Below, in pieces: positions 29,170 through 42,528 of a stretch of DNA of 42,666 nt. The notes beneath the pieces are model-generated. The model did not search any database. It had not been told where the DNA came from and was given only the letters and a program-made list of their open reading frames with translations. Each line of letters opens with the position of its first letter. Positions within the stretch are counted from its first letter, which is position 1. Origin of the DNA: Gammaproteobacteria bacterium (lineage in GTDB: Bacteria > Pseudomonadota > Gammaproteobacteria > JABXHR01); NCBI GenBank assembly GCA_013373515.1, contig JABXHR010000123.1, positions 1 through 42,666 on the forward strand, in the 5' to 3' direction. Both the position numbers and the translations under genes were made by a program.

Positions 29170-29355
29170 CCCTGGTGGCTCTGCGGCTTTTGCCATGGTG
29201 GGGTTATCCTTGGGCCTTAATACTTTACCCAGGAACTTTCCATTCAGTCGGTGTGCATGCTCGCTACGGGGAGAAGCCTAAAGCCTGATTCGGGGGTTCC
29301 GCCCTGAACCTTAGGTTCAAGGTGCAAAGCCAAGCGGAGCTCGTGGAGTCACCTT
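29170..29355 (+). ncRNA. ssrS: 6S RNA
   Basis: The region between zapA and ygfA holds a 6S-type RNA of about 185 bases. The terminal stem pairs GGTG (29174-29177) with CACC (29350-29353), CTCTGC with GCGGAG, and GGCTTTTGC with GCAAAGCC. The 3' half has the conserved block with GAGAAGCCTAAA, then CCCTGAACC and GGTTCAAGG, as in gammaproteobacterial ssrS. It mimics an open promoter and sequesters sigma-70 RNA polymerase. A short T-tract follows the terminal stem, and ygfA lies about 50 bases on, the usual processing pair. Confidence 0.9.
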
Positions 29356-29405: not shown

Positions 29406-29984
29406 ATGACAGATCAACACACCATCCGGCAGCGCATCAACGCAGAGCGGAAAGCACTCGATGCCGATACCCTTAGCCGTCACGCAGACGCCTGCGCGGC
29501 GCAAGTGAAAACGCTAATCCCAGATTCGGCGCTACTTAAGGTTGCAGCCTATCGAGCCGTGCGCGGGGAAATGGATCCAAAGCCCGCCATTGAATGGCTG
29601 TGGGCGCAGGGCCACCATGTATACCTACCGATCGTTGACGGCGAAGACATGCGGTTTGCCCGCTGGCACGCAGATCAGCCCTTGGTGAAACGCGGCTTAG
29701 GGCTCTATGAGCCAGATGTCCCTCGTGACGAATGGCTGCACGGCATGGATTTAGATGTCATTTTGGCGCCACTGGTGGCATTTGACCGTCGGTGCCAGCG
29801 CATTGGGATGGGTGGTGGTTTCTATGACCGAACATTTGAACCAAGACGCCAAGGCATCGCGACGCCAACGCTGATCGGCATTGCCCACGCGTTGCAAGAA
29901 ACGCCTCAGATTGAGGCGCAAGACTGGGATGTACCGCTAGATTACATCGTCACCGAGGCCGAAATCATTCAGCGACCACTCTGA
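29406..29984 (+). CDS. ygfA: 5-formyltetrahydrofolate cyclo-ligase
   Basis: A 192-residue enzyme that turns 5-formyl-tetrahydrofolate into methenyl-tetrahydrofolate with ATP. The N-terminal R-x-R region (IRQRINAERKAL), VAAYRAVRGEMDP, and the ATP-site motif RIGMGGGFYDR near residue 137 are all seen. It complements purU in folate one-carbon balance. Downstream of 6S RNA, as in many gammaproteobacteria. The 3' end overlaps the remains of a convergent P450 gene. Confidence 0.95.
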   Translation: MTDQHTIRQRINAERKALDADTLSRHADACAAQVKTLIPDSALLKVAAYRAVRGEMDPKPAIEWLWAQGHHVYLPIVDGEDMRFARWHADQPLVKRGLGLYEPDVPRDEWLHGMDLDVILAPLVAFDRRCQRIGMGGGFYDRTFEPRRQGIATPTLIGIAHALQETPQIEAQDWDVPLDYIVTEAEIIQRPL

Positions 29985-37676: not shown

Positions 37677-37983
37677 ATCAAATCCTTTTAAAACAAAATC
37701 AGCCGCCGTGCCAGCTCTTGCTGGAGACTTTACCATTCTCGTCAACGCGAAAATGAGTATTTTGACTATAAATCCCCATGCACCCGTTGATTATTACATA
37801 TTTTCCTGAGGCTCAATAGAGCCCATATCCGCCCTCAAGATCAAAGACAATGAAATTATCAATAAAACTATGCATCGACTTCATAAAATAACTTCAACTC
37901 ATGCTTAGGGTAAAAAATCTCTCGGACCTACCAAATTGTGAGTAAAGAAGATACTTGGTCGCAAGTCGACCTTTAACGCAGCA
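37677..37983. other. AT-rich gap between small minus-strand genes
   Basis: About 300 bases, strongly AT-rich, without a convincing gene. At 37964-37979 the plus strand reads AGTCGACCTTTAACGC. It is nearly identical (14 of 16) to AGTTGACCTTTAATGC at 39192-39207, beside an attC-like site, so it may be a cassette boundary for the gene ending at 37984. The promoter for the gene at 37299-37676 should lie here. Confidence 0.4.
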
Positions 37984-38442
37984 TTATGCTCCACAATCTA
38001 GCTCAATAACCACTCCGTTTTCAATGACAGCTTTTAGGCTCTGCGCTGCCCCGCCTCCGGCAAAGTAATAAGTATCCCCTGATTTTAAAACCGGCATACC
38101 CAGATGAAAATACAATTCATTCTGCGCTATGCCAGTTTGAAGGGATTCACATATTGCAATATTCCTATAGCTTGGCTTACAGCTCTTATCCCGAGCGCAC
38201 TGACGATGTATGCAGTAATCACCATTGCTGGCCCACTTACCATCCGAATAAAGACACGCGCCCTGCAAAAATAATCTATTCGCTGGCTGCCAATAAAAAA
38301 CAGCAATAGCAGAAATTGCAAAAACGATAATGACCAATAACTTCAATTTACTTTTACTAAAAAATAAACATCGAAACACGTTTAGCCCGACCCAGCCCTT
38401 CCTTAGCACTGTTTGAATTTCGCCCTCTAGCATTGCCCACAC
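37984..38442 (-). CDS. Hypothetical single-helix membrane protein
   Basis: A 152-residue protein from a GTG at 38442 (an ATG at 38433 is also possible). Not recognised. One N-terminal membrane helix (LKLLVIIVFAISAIAVFYW, about 33-51) is followed by an outside-facing domain rich in cysteine: CLYSDGKW, CIHRQC, C in KSCKP, CESLQTG and the final CGA. The many cysteines suggest disulfides. AT-rich; likely a cassette gene. Confidence 0.55.
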   Translation of the reverse strand: MWAMLEGEIQTVLRKGWVGLNVFRCLFFSKSKLKLLVIIVFAISAIAVFYWQPANRLFLQGACLYSDGKWASNGDYCIHRQCARDKSCKPSYRNIAICESLQTGIAQNELYFHLGMPVLKSGDTYYFAGGGAAQSLKAVIENGVVIELDCGA

Positions 38443-38492
38443 TTAAAGCAAAGGCATGATCAGTTCGGCGTCCAGGCCAGTATTGATCATTT

Positions 38493-39188
38493 CTACCAAG
38501 GCAATGACCCTGATTCCATGCAAAGATAGTCCCGGTTTTCGATTTTTTTATTAACGATCAGCTCACTTATTAGCTCTGCCGATTTTTCCGGTGTCATATG
38601 GGCATCTTTTGGTGCCATTTTGGTAAGGAGTCGTCCAGGATGGATCGCTGCCACTCTGATACCATCTGCTTCCAAGTCATCTGCCAAACAGAGAGTAAGC
38701 ATGTTTTGAGCAGCTTTACCTATTCGATACGAGTAGGAACAACCAGAACCTTGCGCTGCTCCTGACGCCTGCATTGACATCGATCCACGCCGAGAGCTTA
38801 TATTAACGACCAAGGCGTTGTTAGATTTACACAGTGCAGTATGGGCACCTTTAACGGTAGAAAAAACACCTAAGCAGTTTGTTTCAAAGGCTGAAGAAAT
38901 CTGCTCTGTAGTCGCAGAGTCAAGACTGGAGCCTTTGCTACCTGAACCTGCATTATTTATCACTACATCGATCGATAAGTCGCCCAAGAAACCTTTGACC
39001 CTTAATTCATGCTCCGGCGACCGGACATCTGAAATAAGAATACTTGCTTTGGGGAATTCCTTTAACAACTCTTCTTTCGCATCAGAACTTCTGACAAGCA
39101 AAAACAAGGTCCACTGATAGCCATTGAAGGCACGCGCAAGTTCTCGCCCAAGCCCTCTTGAAGCTCCAGTGATTAAAATTCTAGGCAA
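38493..39188 (-). CDS. Short-chain dehydrogenase/reductase
   Basis: A 231-residue SDR. The frame opens with a TTG at 39188 about 9 bases after AAAGG; no ATG is available. The cofactor site is TGASRGLGREL, NNAG follows, and the catalytic Ser-Tyr-Lys are in NISSRR and YSYRIGK. A variable C-terminus replaces the usual substrate loop. The leader sequence AAAGGTCAACT directly follows an attC-like site, so this looks like a cassette gene. Substrate unknown. Confidence 0.8.
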   Translation of the reverse strand: MPRILITGASRGLGRELARAFNGYQWTLFLLVRSSDAKEELLKEFPKASILISDVRSPEHELRVKGFLGDLSIDVVINNAGSGSKGSSLDSATTEQISSAFETNCLGVFSTVKGAHTALCKSNNALVVNISSRRGSMSMQASGAAQGSGCSYSYRIGKAAQNMLTLCLADDLEADGIRVAAIHPGRLLTKMAPKDAHMTPEKSAELISELIVNKKIENRDYLCMESGSLPW

Positions 39189-39197
39189 TTTAGTTGA

Positions 39198-39254
39198 CCT
39201 TTAATGCCTAAGGCAGCTGTTAGAGAAGCGCATCAGCTGCCTTCGTTTGTTATA
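39198..39254 (-). repeat. Short attC-like site
   Basis: On the minus strand the site opens with TATAACAAACG, contains the perfect dyad AAGGCAGCTG / CAGCTGCCTT, and ends GGCATTAAAGG. The opening and closing boxes resemble attC R'' (AAC) and R' (GTTRRRY, here ATTAAAG). It is about 57 bases, near the minimum attC size. It overlaps the stop of the gene at 39233, as cassette genes often do. Confidence 0.5.
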
Positions 39255-39622
39255 GATTTCTTATGATATAACTCAATTTTGACAAGCGCCCAAGGAGTGC
39301 AGAAAACGACAAAAAATATCAGTAAACCCATGATGACTCCAAAAATTGGGTAATTCACTGTTGAAATGATTAATGCTATAACCCCGAGAATCAATCCAAC
39401 AAACCTTCTTCGGATAATTAGCCACATCGCAAATGACATCGTCAGCATACTTGCAAGCTCAACGTGCTTATTTAGATCAGAGCGTCTTGGGTCATACAAT
39501 AGATCAGGAAACCCAAAGAATAGATTTAGGAATGTCAAACATACGCTACCAGCAAAAGATACCAATAAAATCCAACCTAGGTAATCGCTTACTCTGAACC
39601 AAATTCTAGTGAGAGTCGTCAC
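39233..39622 (-). CDS. Hypothetical multi-helix membrane protein
   Basis: A 129-residue protein beginning with a GTG (39622) preceded by GAGG. Four hydrophobic helices are visible (about 13-38, 57-70, 74-92, 93-112) with short loops; family not recognised. It lies between two attC-like sites: the boundary GTTATAG is 19 bases upstream of its start, and its stop lies inside the next site. Likely a one-gene cassette. Confidence 0.65.
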   Translation of the reverse strand: MTTLTRIWFRVSDYLGWILLVSFAGSVCLTFLNLFFGFPDLLYDPRRSDLNKHVELASMLTMSFAMWLIIRRRFVGLILGVIALIISTVNYPIFGVIMGLLIFFVVFCTPWALVKIELYHKKSITNEGS

Positions 39623-39633
39623 GCAGCCATCCT

Positions 39634-39738
39634 CTATAACGCCCGGCTATGGCGCCGGAGTGCAGTTGGAATTTTTTGTGGTATCCACCACAAAAAAGGC
39701 CGACGGAACGGAGGTCGCCCATGAGCCGATTGTTATGT
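39634..39738 (-). repeat. attC recombination site of an integron cassette
   Basis: About 105 bases. Reading the minus strand: R'' box ACATAAC followed by AATCGG, and R' box GCGTTATAG at the end, the typical TAACAA...GCGTTA arrangement. The arms pair with small bulges (CGGCTCATGGGCG against CGGCTATGGCG in the opposite arm), as in attC extrahelical bases. The tip is a perfect 11-base dyad, TTTTTTGTGGT / ACCACAAAAAA, over a 4-base loop (39672-39697). It follows the stop of the GFA gene by a few bases. Confidence 0.7.
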
Positions 39739-39741
39739 GAA

Positions 39742-40149
39742 CTAGCCGCGATCTGCGGGATGGTTGACACCGTCATAAGTTGGAATACCGTTTATTTTTA
39801 GAGGATTAATGCCCTCCAGACAGGCCACATTAAAACCGTACTGACTGGGATTAGAGCGGCGCTGGTGGTGCGTATAAATGCCACAGTTGGAGCAAAAAAA
39901 GTGCTTCGCGGTCTTTGTGTTGAATTGATATAGCTTCAGTGTGTCGGCACCACGAACAATTTTGATATCTGACAATGGCACCGATGCAACAATAGCTCCT
40001 CTTCGGCGACACAAAGAGCAGTCGCAACGACGGACGTCTACCAAGCCAACAGGAAGGCTCAATTCAAGTTCGACCATGCCACAGTGGCATGTAGCCTTAT
40101 GTTTAGCTCGAATTGGCACTCCATCAACTTCGGTTAAATTTATTGCCAT
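39742..40149 (-). CDS. GFA-family (glutathione-dependent formaldehyde-activating-like) zinc protein
   Basis: A 135-residue protein with the GFA/CENP-V zinc pattern: CHCG near residue 21, CDCSLCRR near 42-49, and FFCSNCGIYTHH near 84-95. These motifs hold two zinc ions. The family is named after a formaldehyde-glutathione enzyme but most members have unknown roles, and GFA genes are common in integron cassettes. The gene lies between attC-like boxes at 39732-39738 and 40169-40177. Confidence 0.85.
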   Translation of the reverse strand: MAINLTEVDGVPIRAKHKATCHCGMVELELSLPVGLVDVRRCDCSLCRRRGAIVASVPLSDIKIVRGADTLKLYQFNTKTAKHFFCSNCGIYTHHQRRSNPSQYGFNVACLEGINPLKINGIPTYDGVNHPADRG

Positions 40150-40167
40150 ACTTTAATCCGTGGGAGC

Positions 40168-40231
40168 ACATAACAGTCGCTCTCAAGGGAATTTTTTCCC
40201 TCGAGAATTATTTATCCGTTTCCGTTGAGAA
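40168..40231. repeat. Weak attC-like dyad upstream of the GFA gene
   Basis: ACATAACAGTCGC (plus strand, 40169 onward) is matched near 40220 by CCGTTGAGA, with an internal dyad TCAAGGGAA / TTCCCTCGA. The outer box is the same ACATAAC heptamer seen in the site at 39738. Orientation is ambiguous, and this may be a partial or decayed site. Confidence 0.35.
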
Positions 40232-40352: not shown

Positions 40353-40598
40353 TCAAGCCGCTCGGCAAGTCTGCCGCACCAACCAAACAAACTCAGCCAG
40401 CGCGCCTTTAAAGCGCCCTTTTTCGGCTTTGTAGCACTCGGCTCGATCGAGCACATAACGCGCAGCATTTTGAGGGGTTACATTGGATGGCAATGACATT
40501 AACCATTCTAGGTAAACGCATTTTGCAGTGGTTTCTAGGGTTTTAGCGTCGCCGTGCACGGTGGCAAGACGATCGAAATATTGATGAAGATTAGACAT
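40353..40598 (-). CDS. Unrecognised 81-residue protein downstream of a cobalamin riboswitch
   Basis: Starts at MSNLHQYFDRLATVHGDAKT. I do not recognise a family. It is mostly helical by composition, with no signal peptide or membrane helix, two cysteines (in AKCVYLEW and AECYKAEKG) and a third near the end (RQTCRAA). Composition is like the core genome rather than the AT-rich cassettes. It is the first gene on the same strand after the cobalamin riboswitch, with GAGG 8 bases before the ATG, so B12 probably controls it. Confidence 0.7.
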   Translation of the reverse strand: MSNLHQYFDRLATVHGDAKTLETTAKCVYLEWLMSLPSNVTPQNAARYVLDRAECYKAEKGRFKGALAEFVWLVRQTCRAA

Positions 40599-40628
40599 GC
40601 CTCAAACCTCAGGGTTGAGGCGAGGTTT
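40599..40628 (-). promoter_or_regulatory. Two competing hairpins over the ribosome site of the 81-residue gene
   Basis: In the RNA, AAACCTC (40628-40622) can pair with GAGGTTT (40610-40604), while GCCTCAA (40621-40615) can pair with TTGAGGC (40605-40599). The two hairpins cannot both form as simple stems. The GAGG Shine-Dalgarno is within the first; the bases just before ATG are within the second. This looks like a translation-control platform. Confidence 0.6.
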
Positions 40629-40674
40629 ATTGGTGAGATCTTTTGATTTGCACCACTTGGACACCCCGCCAAGG

Positions 40675-40696
40675 TAAAACAATCGGTGGTAATCAC
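40675..40696 (-). terminator. Small hairpin with T-tract after the B12 box
   Basis: On the minus strand, CGGTG and CACCG pair over ATTAC and are followed by ATTGTTTT. The stem is short, so it may be a weak terminator or part of the riboswitch expression platform. Confidence 0.4.
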
Positions 40697-40862
40697 CGTC
40701 ATAACCTGGCAGGTCTCCTGACTTGGATGTCTGCAACACATTTCGCCTTCCCGCCGAAGCAGTGGCTGTGAAATGGTCTCGATCCTTACAGTTGCGGGGG
40801 CAGTGCTGGATTTTCACCAGCTTCCCTCTTAGCAGCGTAGTGCTGAACCAAGTATGGGCTGA
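40690..40862 (-). promoter_or_regulatory. Cobalamin (B12) riboswitch
   Basis: The minus strand contains GGTGAAAATCCAGCACTGCC directly followed by CCCGCAACTGTAAGG, the conserved core, then CGGCGGGAAGGC, then the B12 box AGTCAGGAGACCTGCCAG at 40705-40722. All conserved elements are in order and spacing. It binds adenosyl- or methylcobalamin and represses the gene below. It starts just after the ilvA stop (40902) and is followed by a 5-base stem, CGGTG / CACCG, with TTGTTTT. Confidence 0.93.
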
Positions 40863-40901
40863 GTATAGCGATTATTTTGTGACCGAGCGTCGCAATTGCG
40901 G

Positions 40902-42419
40902 CTAGCGCAGAAACGATAAATAGGCTTCGTTGTCGCTCTCTTCGTGGTACTGATAACCCAAGCCATCAATACAGGCCTCAAAAGCCGCACTATCGGCGGA
41001 CGGCACTTGGATACCCACCAACACGCGGCCATAGGCGGAGCCGTGGTTGCGGTAGTGAAACAGGCTGATGTTCCAATTTGAGGCATCGGCGATGGTGTCG
41101 AGAAACTTGGCCAAAGCACCTGGGCGCTCGGGAAACTCAAACCGAAATACACGTTCGTCATTGATCATCGGGGCCCGTCCACCGACCATATGCCGGGTGT
41201 GCAGCTTGGCCACTTCGTTGTCGGTCATGTCCATTACCTCTAGCCCGTGTCGGTGCAGCGTATCGAGCAAGGCTTCGCGTCCGGCAACACCCATCACTTG
41301 TACGCCTACAAAGATTTTGGCGTCTTCGCTATCGGAAAAGCGATAGTTAAATTCAGTGACCTGTCGCTCCCCGAGCAATTGGCAAAATGACCGAAATGAA
41401 CCGGGTTTCTCTGGGATGGTCACGGCGAGAATGGCTTCGCGTTGCTCGCCGATTTCGGCGCGCTCGGTCACGTGGCGTAAGCGATCGAAATTGACGTTGG
41501 CACCCGATGTGACCACTGCAATACGCTTGCCCTCCCATTGGTGAGCCGCGATGTATTTCTTGGCCCCCGCCAGCGCTAGGGCACCCGAGGGCTCCAGTAT
41601 GGCGCGCGTGTCGTCGAACACGTCTTTGATGGCGGCACAGATTTCATCGGTATTGGCCGTAATCACTTCGTCGAGGTATTGCGCACAGACGCGGTGAGTC
41701 TCGGTGCCAGCAATGCGCACGGCGCAGCCATCGGCAAAGATGCCCACGGGGCCGATATCCACTGGCTTGCCTGCCTTAATTGCAGCTTGCATACAGGCTG
41801 CATCGTGAGGCTCAACCCCGATGACTTTAGTGTTGGGCCATAAGGATTTGATCAACACCGATACGCCAGCGGCCAGTCCGCCCCCGCCAATTTGCACAAA
41901 GATGGCATCTAGAGGCTCGGGATGTTGCTGCACGATTTCCATGCCCACCGTCCCTTGTCCTGCGATAGTGTGCTCGGCATCAAAGGGATGCACAAAGGCA
42001 TAGCCATGCTGTTTTTGTAACTCGATGGCATGCGCATAGGCGTCGTCAAAGGCATCGCCGTGCAGCACCACTTCACCGCCGAGCGCTTTGACGCCCTCCA
42101 CTTTGAGTTGTGGTGTGGTTTTGGGCATGACAATGACCGACTTTAGCCCCAAATGTTTGGCGCCATTGGCTACGCCCTGGGCGTGATTGCCCGCAGAGGC
42201 GCAGATGACCCCCGTTAGCGCCGGATCAGCTTGCTTGAGGTGAAAAATGGTGTTGTAGGCGCCCCGATTTTTAAAGGAAAACACGCTTTGCTGGTCTTCA
42301 CGCTTGAGAAAAATCTCGTTGTGCAGTTTGCGGCTAATCGAATTCGCTTTTTGCAGGGGCGTTTCGATGGCCACGTCGTAGACGCGCGAGGTGAGAATTT
42401 TCTCAACGTAAGGATCCAT
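40902..42419 (-). CDS. ilvA: Threonine ammonia-lyase (threonine deaminase), biosynthetic
   Basis: About 505 residues, starting at MDPYVEKILTSRVYDVAIETPL, which aligns with Pseudomonas-type IlvA; another ATG lies four codons upstream. The PLP Lys is in SFKNRGAYN, the Ser-rich CASAGNHAQG loop follows, and GGGGLAAGV binds phosphate. Two C-terminal ACT-like regulatory domains (about 325-505) are present, so it is the isoleucine-inhibited biosynthetic form. It makes 2-oxobutanoate for isoleucine. Divergent from rpiA. Confidence 0.95.
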   Translation of the reverse strand: MDPYVEKILTSRVYDVAIETPLQKANSISRKLHNEIFLKREDQQSVFSFKNRGAYNTIFHLKQADPALTGVICASAGNHAQGVANGAKHLGLKSVIVMPKTTPQLKVEGVKALGGEVVLHGDAFDDAYAHAIELQKQHGYAFVHPFDAEHTIAGQGTVGMEIVQQHPEPLDAIFVQIGGGGLAAGVSVLIKSLWPNTKVIGVEPHDAACMQAAIKAGKPVDIGPVGIFADGCAVRIAGTETHRVCAQYLDEVITANTDEICAAIKDVFDDTRAILEPSGALALAGAKKYIAAHQWEGKRIAVVTSGANVNFDRLRHVTERAEIGEQREAILAVTIPEKPGSFRSFCQLLGERQVTEFNYRFSDSEDAKIFVGVQVMGVAGREALLDTLHRHGLEVMDMTDNEVAKLHTRHMVGGRAPMINDERVFRFEFPERPGALAKFLDTIADASNWNISLFHYRNHGSAYGRVLVGIQVPSADSAAFEACIDGLGYQYHEESDNEAYLSFLR

Positions 42420-42528
42420 GAGGCACAGCATTTGTGGAAAGCCTCAAGTGTGCCATATCGCGGGGGACAGTTCACCGTGCAAAGCGCATTTGCGTTAAAC
42501 TACGGCGGTATTTTTTTGGGTGTGAGCA

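Follow-up and report, generated by a model that had tools for sequence, protein, structure and literature searches.

We describe here a gene that probably forms a monocistronic B12-responsive unit, in which a cobalamin riboswitch controls a small, basic, soluble helical protein of an undescribed family. It lies in a 42,666-nucleotide stretch of gammaproteobacterial DNA, hereafter the window (Table 1). The family is previously undescribed within the open-licence literature, an earlier mention being possible.

The original prediction had placed a complete cobalamin riboswitch directly before an 81-residue frame. An Rfam search of the window returned one cobalamin riboswitch only, a full-length minus-strand match to RF00174 (model positions 1-189) that passes the gathering threshold (122.7 versus 31.5 bits) and has the fourth-best score among the cobalamin riboswitches listed for 369 genomes of the class. 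Between the stop codon of the minus-strand gene ilvA (40902..42431) and the aptamer lie 34 nt, and the initial bases of the aptamer, TATACT (40867-40862), resemble a -10 box. A second cobalamin riboswitch in the same genome precedes a gene for a BtuB-like receptor, with BtuF/BtuC-like genes adjoining, so the B12 uptake target of this genome sits elsewhere. The window also contains a 6S (SsrS) RNA at 29175-29353 on the plus strand (78.5 bits), directly before a gene at 29406-29984.

Table 1. Features of the riboswitch-gene unit and of the adjacent cassette stretch, in window coordinates.
Feature	Position	Strand	Basis
Cobalamin riboswitch aptamer RF00174, complete	40691..40867	-	cmscan 122.7 bits, E 1.8e-30, model 1-189 of 189
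Hairpin CUUGG-CGGGGUGU-CCAAG, 3' of the aptamer	40656..40673	-	Sequence
Putative expression platform directly 5' of the ATG	40599..40621	-	Sequence and folds; switching predicted from these
81-residue protein, member of a new small-protein family behind cobalamin riboswitches	40353..40598	-	ORF, homologues, profiles
Integron-like cassette stretch	37980-40168	-	Sequence and DNA folds
GTTATGT, start of the cassette stretch, outside the riboswitch-gene unit	40162..40168	-	Sequence; DNA folds
attC-like site	39737-39636		Arms AACAATCGGCT/AGCCGGGCGTT, one arm with an extra base
attC-like site	39256-39195		DNA folds and sequence

The leader between aptamer and gene suggests how expression might be switched. 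The GCGGGG motif of the hairpin that follows the aptamer recurs behind 20 of 128 scanned riboswitch cores, including those of three other members of the small-protein family. Many gammaproteobacterial cobalamin riboswitches (L081, L100, L109, L014, L028, L010 and others) have a post-aptamer hairpin with a GGGCGGGGTG loop, which is apparently a shared expression-platform element. Closer to the gene, the Shine-Dalgarno sequence GAGG (40610-40607) can take part in two exclusive hairpins, being masked by CCUCA/UGAGG pairing in one and looped out by GCCUCAA/UUGAGGC pairing in the other. Adenosylcobalamin or a similar cobamide would fold the aptamer, and the cobalamin-bound state would mask the Shine-Dalgarno sequence; judging from the leader and the established behaviour of cobalamin riboswitches, the protein would be made when B12 is scarce. 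Because a weak terminator-like hairpin is also present (40698-40684), control may instead be transcriptional.

The 81-residue frame is the first gene past the riboswitch, 92 nt from the aptamer, and has an ATG start with GAGG 8 nt 5' of it. Its codon score (0.08) exceeds those of the neighbouring cassette genes and falls at the 95th percentile of spurious frames and the 5th percentile of true-gene pieces, which alone is suggestive; it is the existence of homologues that establishes the frame as a real gene. The prediction had also set the protein outside the BtuB, CbtA/B, MetE, Nrd and cobalamin synthesis families, and this was borne out, with no Pfam family found at E values up to 1, no NCBIfam family at E values up to 10 and no match in PHROGs or the PDB. 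Seed scans for close relatives across 85,000 genomes and in viral contigs returned nothing, as expected given the level of identity to the relatives described below, and searching with this protein alone against 369 genomes of the class and 398 of the phylum gave only noise. A Vibrio phage match (E 0.2) was rejected because the phage protein does not fit the family profile, and a Paenibacillus plasmid match (E 0.9) was rejected as weak. Structure prediction from the single sequence gave an all-helical model with low confidence (pLDDT 52), and Foldseek searches with this model yielded no usable fold match.

Relatives emerged from the DNA behind other riboswitches. RF00174 was located in 269 of the 369 class genomes, and we gathered the DNA behind 130 riboswitches, most of which precede TonB-type receptors or cobalamin genes (approximate keyword counts). 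Among the 1987 ORFs at these 130 loci, the best match to the 81-residue protein was a solo 90-residue ORF in genome G190, directly behind RF00174. This match is not significant alone (E 0.21 in 1987 ORFs); two-sequence BLASTP gave 1e-4, with PSAHDAIFAWLLWLPSEADPRKEALLELDR aligned to TTAKCVYLEWLMSLPSNVTPQNAARYVLDR. The G190 protein as query then identified an ORF in G052 (E 1e-3) directly behind another RF00174 riboswitch, and G294 has the same arrangement of riboswitch and small ORF. A four-member profile run against whole genomes in six frames added a fifth member in G747 (E 7.9e-18), where the riboswitch was looked for after the protein match and was found 81 nt upstream (RF00174, 96.2 bits). 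Restricting the search to DNA behind riboswitches can thus recover very divergent small proteins, as weak similarity turns significant there.

Because the G190 link had been picked as the best hit, membership of the 81-residue protein needed an independent test. We therefore built profiles without it and scored them on 8390 six-frame segments. It was recovered by the profile of G190, G052 and G294 (E 4e-6), by that of G052 and G294 only (E 2.5e-5), by that of all four relatives (E 3e-5) and by that of G052, G294 and G747 (E 1.1e-4). Its scores against the profiles, 20.8-26.1 bits, exceed those of all 20,000 shuffles matched to it in composition, which reach at most 16.2 bits. Identity to the four relatives is 21-27% and is strongest over residues 16-61. 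The common core of the family is A-x6-W-L-x2-L-P followed by two predicted helices, and the invariant columns, in the numbering of the 81-residue protein, are M1, A25, W32, L33, L36, P37 and A46. In most pairs of members the second codon position shows the fewest differences and the third the most, a pattern typical of selection on protein.

Each of the five genes comes first after a cobalamin riboswitch, at distances of 92 (window), 104, 77, 85 and 81 (G747) nt. The proposed profile search and riboswitch check thus produced four homologues, where the prediction had allowed for there being none, and in none of the four does a known B12 gene separate the riboswitch from the frame.

The family is narrowly distributed. 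Its five members come from two gammaproteobacterial families, the four relatives being from four genomes of one family and the window from the other; the survey drew on draft genomes. No further member reached E 0.001 when the family profile was run against the 369 class genomes. Matches at E 0.002-0.05 in other genomes of the class were rejected as chance, none of 20 scanned loci having a same-strand upstream riboswitch. Profile scans of viral contigs and searches of plasmids and phages with the relatives as queries returned nothing.

We found no member in G001, the other surveyed genome of the window's family (58% complete). The one riboswitch of this genome (131.7 bits, at L038:6303-6910) precedes a different ORF, a small, Cys-rich 125-residue frame (MQHHLCACTRCTLTGEAC...) of no Pfam family, which is possibly another B12-linked protein of no recognised family; its placement as a DUF1636 relative was not supported. 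MetE above the family cut-off is absent from G001 and from all five carriers of the small gene, and the carriers therefore probably depend on B12 for methionine synthesis. Frames of ~380-400 residues that weakly resemble MetE in its C-terminal half occur in G294, G190 and G001 (L215, L216 and L217, respectively) and could be core-MetE type methionine synthases.

Gene neighbourhoods bear on whether the small gene is the true target of its riboswitch. In G052, G294 and G747 the unit lies between a ribbon-helix-helix-like small-protein gene and a convergent CmoM-like methyltransferase gene, with an RluA-like gene beyond the latter (names by sequence reading). In G190 the unit adjoins a peptidase-like gene of opposite orientation, and in the window it is flanked by ilvA on one side and integron-like cassettes on the other. 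All three neighbourhoods retain the riboswitch, and the small gene is the sole same-strand gene directly behind it, the cassettes of the window excepted. A locus comparison through IlvA, in which the best relatives were ~60% identical, gave none close enough for a synteny test.

The cassettes raise the alternative, included in the original prediction, that their arrival removed the original target and left an orphaned riboswitch before a chance ORF or remnant. Such cassettes do lie directly downstream, and the ORF resembles a gene only weakly in its codon usage. The stretch carries genes for a GFA-family protein, a small membrane protein, an SDR and a 152-residue protein of no assigned family on the same strand as the small gene, as well as near-repeats GCRTTAAAGGTCRACT at 39207 and 37979; no integron integrase above the cut-off was found in the genome. 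However, the GTTATGT boundary falls ~185 bp past the stop codon at 40353, and the cassettes therefore do not interrupt the ORF or come between it and the riboswitch. Nor does the ORF look like a gene cassette itself, as a boundary is recognised downstream only (~40168) and none between riboswitch and ORF. In four genomes, homologues with protein-like substitution patterns occupy this position behind a riboswitch, at loci where no cassettes are seen. Because the gene keeps its riboswitch in three different neighbourhoods, we consider loss of the original target very unlikely.

A related possibility is that the riboswitch acts by read-through on the GFA-family, membrane protein and SDR cassettes, the small ORF being incidental. 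The cassettes are on the same strand and only 0.2 kb downstream, but no such cassettes were seen in the four relatives and the small gene stands alone directly behind the switch, making this explanation likewise very unlikely.

What the protein does can be approached from its size, composition and solo gene arrangement, which lead us to prefer a regulator or adaptor produced when B12 is short. The five-member alignment has no conserved Cys or His, which is neutral with regard to cobalamin binding, and no catalytic-looking residues. For this reason the protein may act by binding a larger partner, as an adaptor or regulator in either B12 uptake or B12-dependent metabolism, a step less certain than the switching itself. 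The main alternative is a basic regulator that binds nucleic acids and, when B12 is short, tunes other genes. All five members are small, basic (pI 8.1-10.6) and soluble, as such a protein might be, yet they match no known DNA- or RNA-binding family and have no conserved basic patch except lineage-specific TAR and AFR motifs; we regard this role as rather unlikely. It is somewhat less likely still that the protein belongs to a known small family from which it has diverged beyond the reach of sequence profiles. Members diverge to ~21% identity, at which distant links are hard to detect, and there are some PDB sequence matches at E 0.01-1; however, these are partial helices in unrelated molecules, and the five-member consensus has no match in Pfam or NCBIfam.

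Returning to the regulator or adaptor reading, a more specific form of it is that this small helical family, made only in B12 shortage, acts on cobalamin-dependent metabolism as its dedicated regulator or chaperone and moves between genomic sites with its riboswitch, which we put forward tentatively as a possible but not the likelier outcome. Of the original proposal of an undescribed B12-linked protein, the part that stands is a new family behind riboswitches in five of five cases, while the B12-linked function is what we infer from riboswitch placement.

Uptake, synthesis or B12-independent isozymes usually account for the genes in cobalamin riboswitch regulons. That a conserved gene falls outside the usual regulon classes and keeps its riboswitch in three settings suggests that a part of B12 physiology is still missing from this picture. 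The regulon classes named for RF00174 are B12 biosynthesis, transport of B12 or its precursors, cobalt transport and isozymes of B12-dependent enzymes (PMC3766115). The new unit resembles these regulons in having a complete aptamer and a leader before one first gene, and the genomes that carry it have other riboswitches before BtuB, CobW, chelatase or CbiA/CobQ-type genes, but its protein fits none of the classes. A small protein behind a cobalamin riboswitch also occurs in the unit of a DUF1636-like metal-binding protein and CobW, found at another riboswitch in the genomes of two of the relatives (named by sequence reading); however, DUF1636-type proteins have conserved Cys residues (CTTC...C..C), whereas the proteins of the new family are helical, lack any conserved Cys and are encoded by solo genes. 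By analogy only, the family can be compared with the manganese-related MntS of E. coli (PMC4361602), which is likewise a small protein of cofactor or metal scarcity without catalytic residues, the new family differing in its control by a riboswitch.
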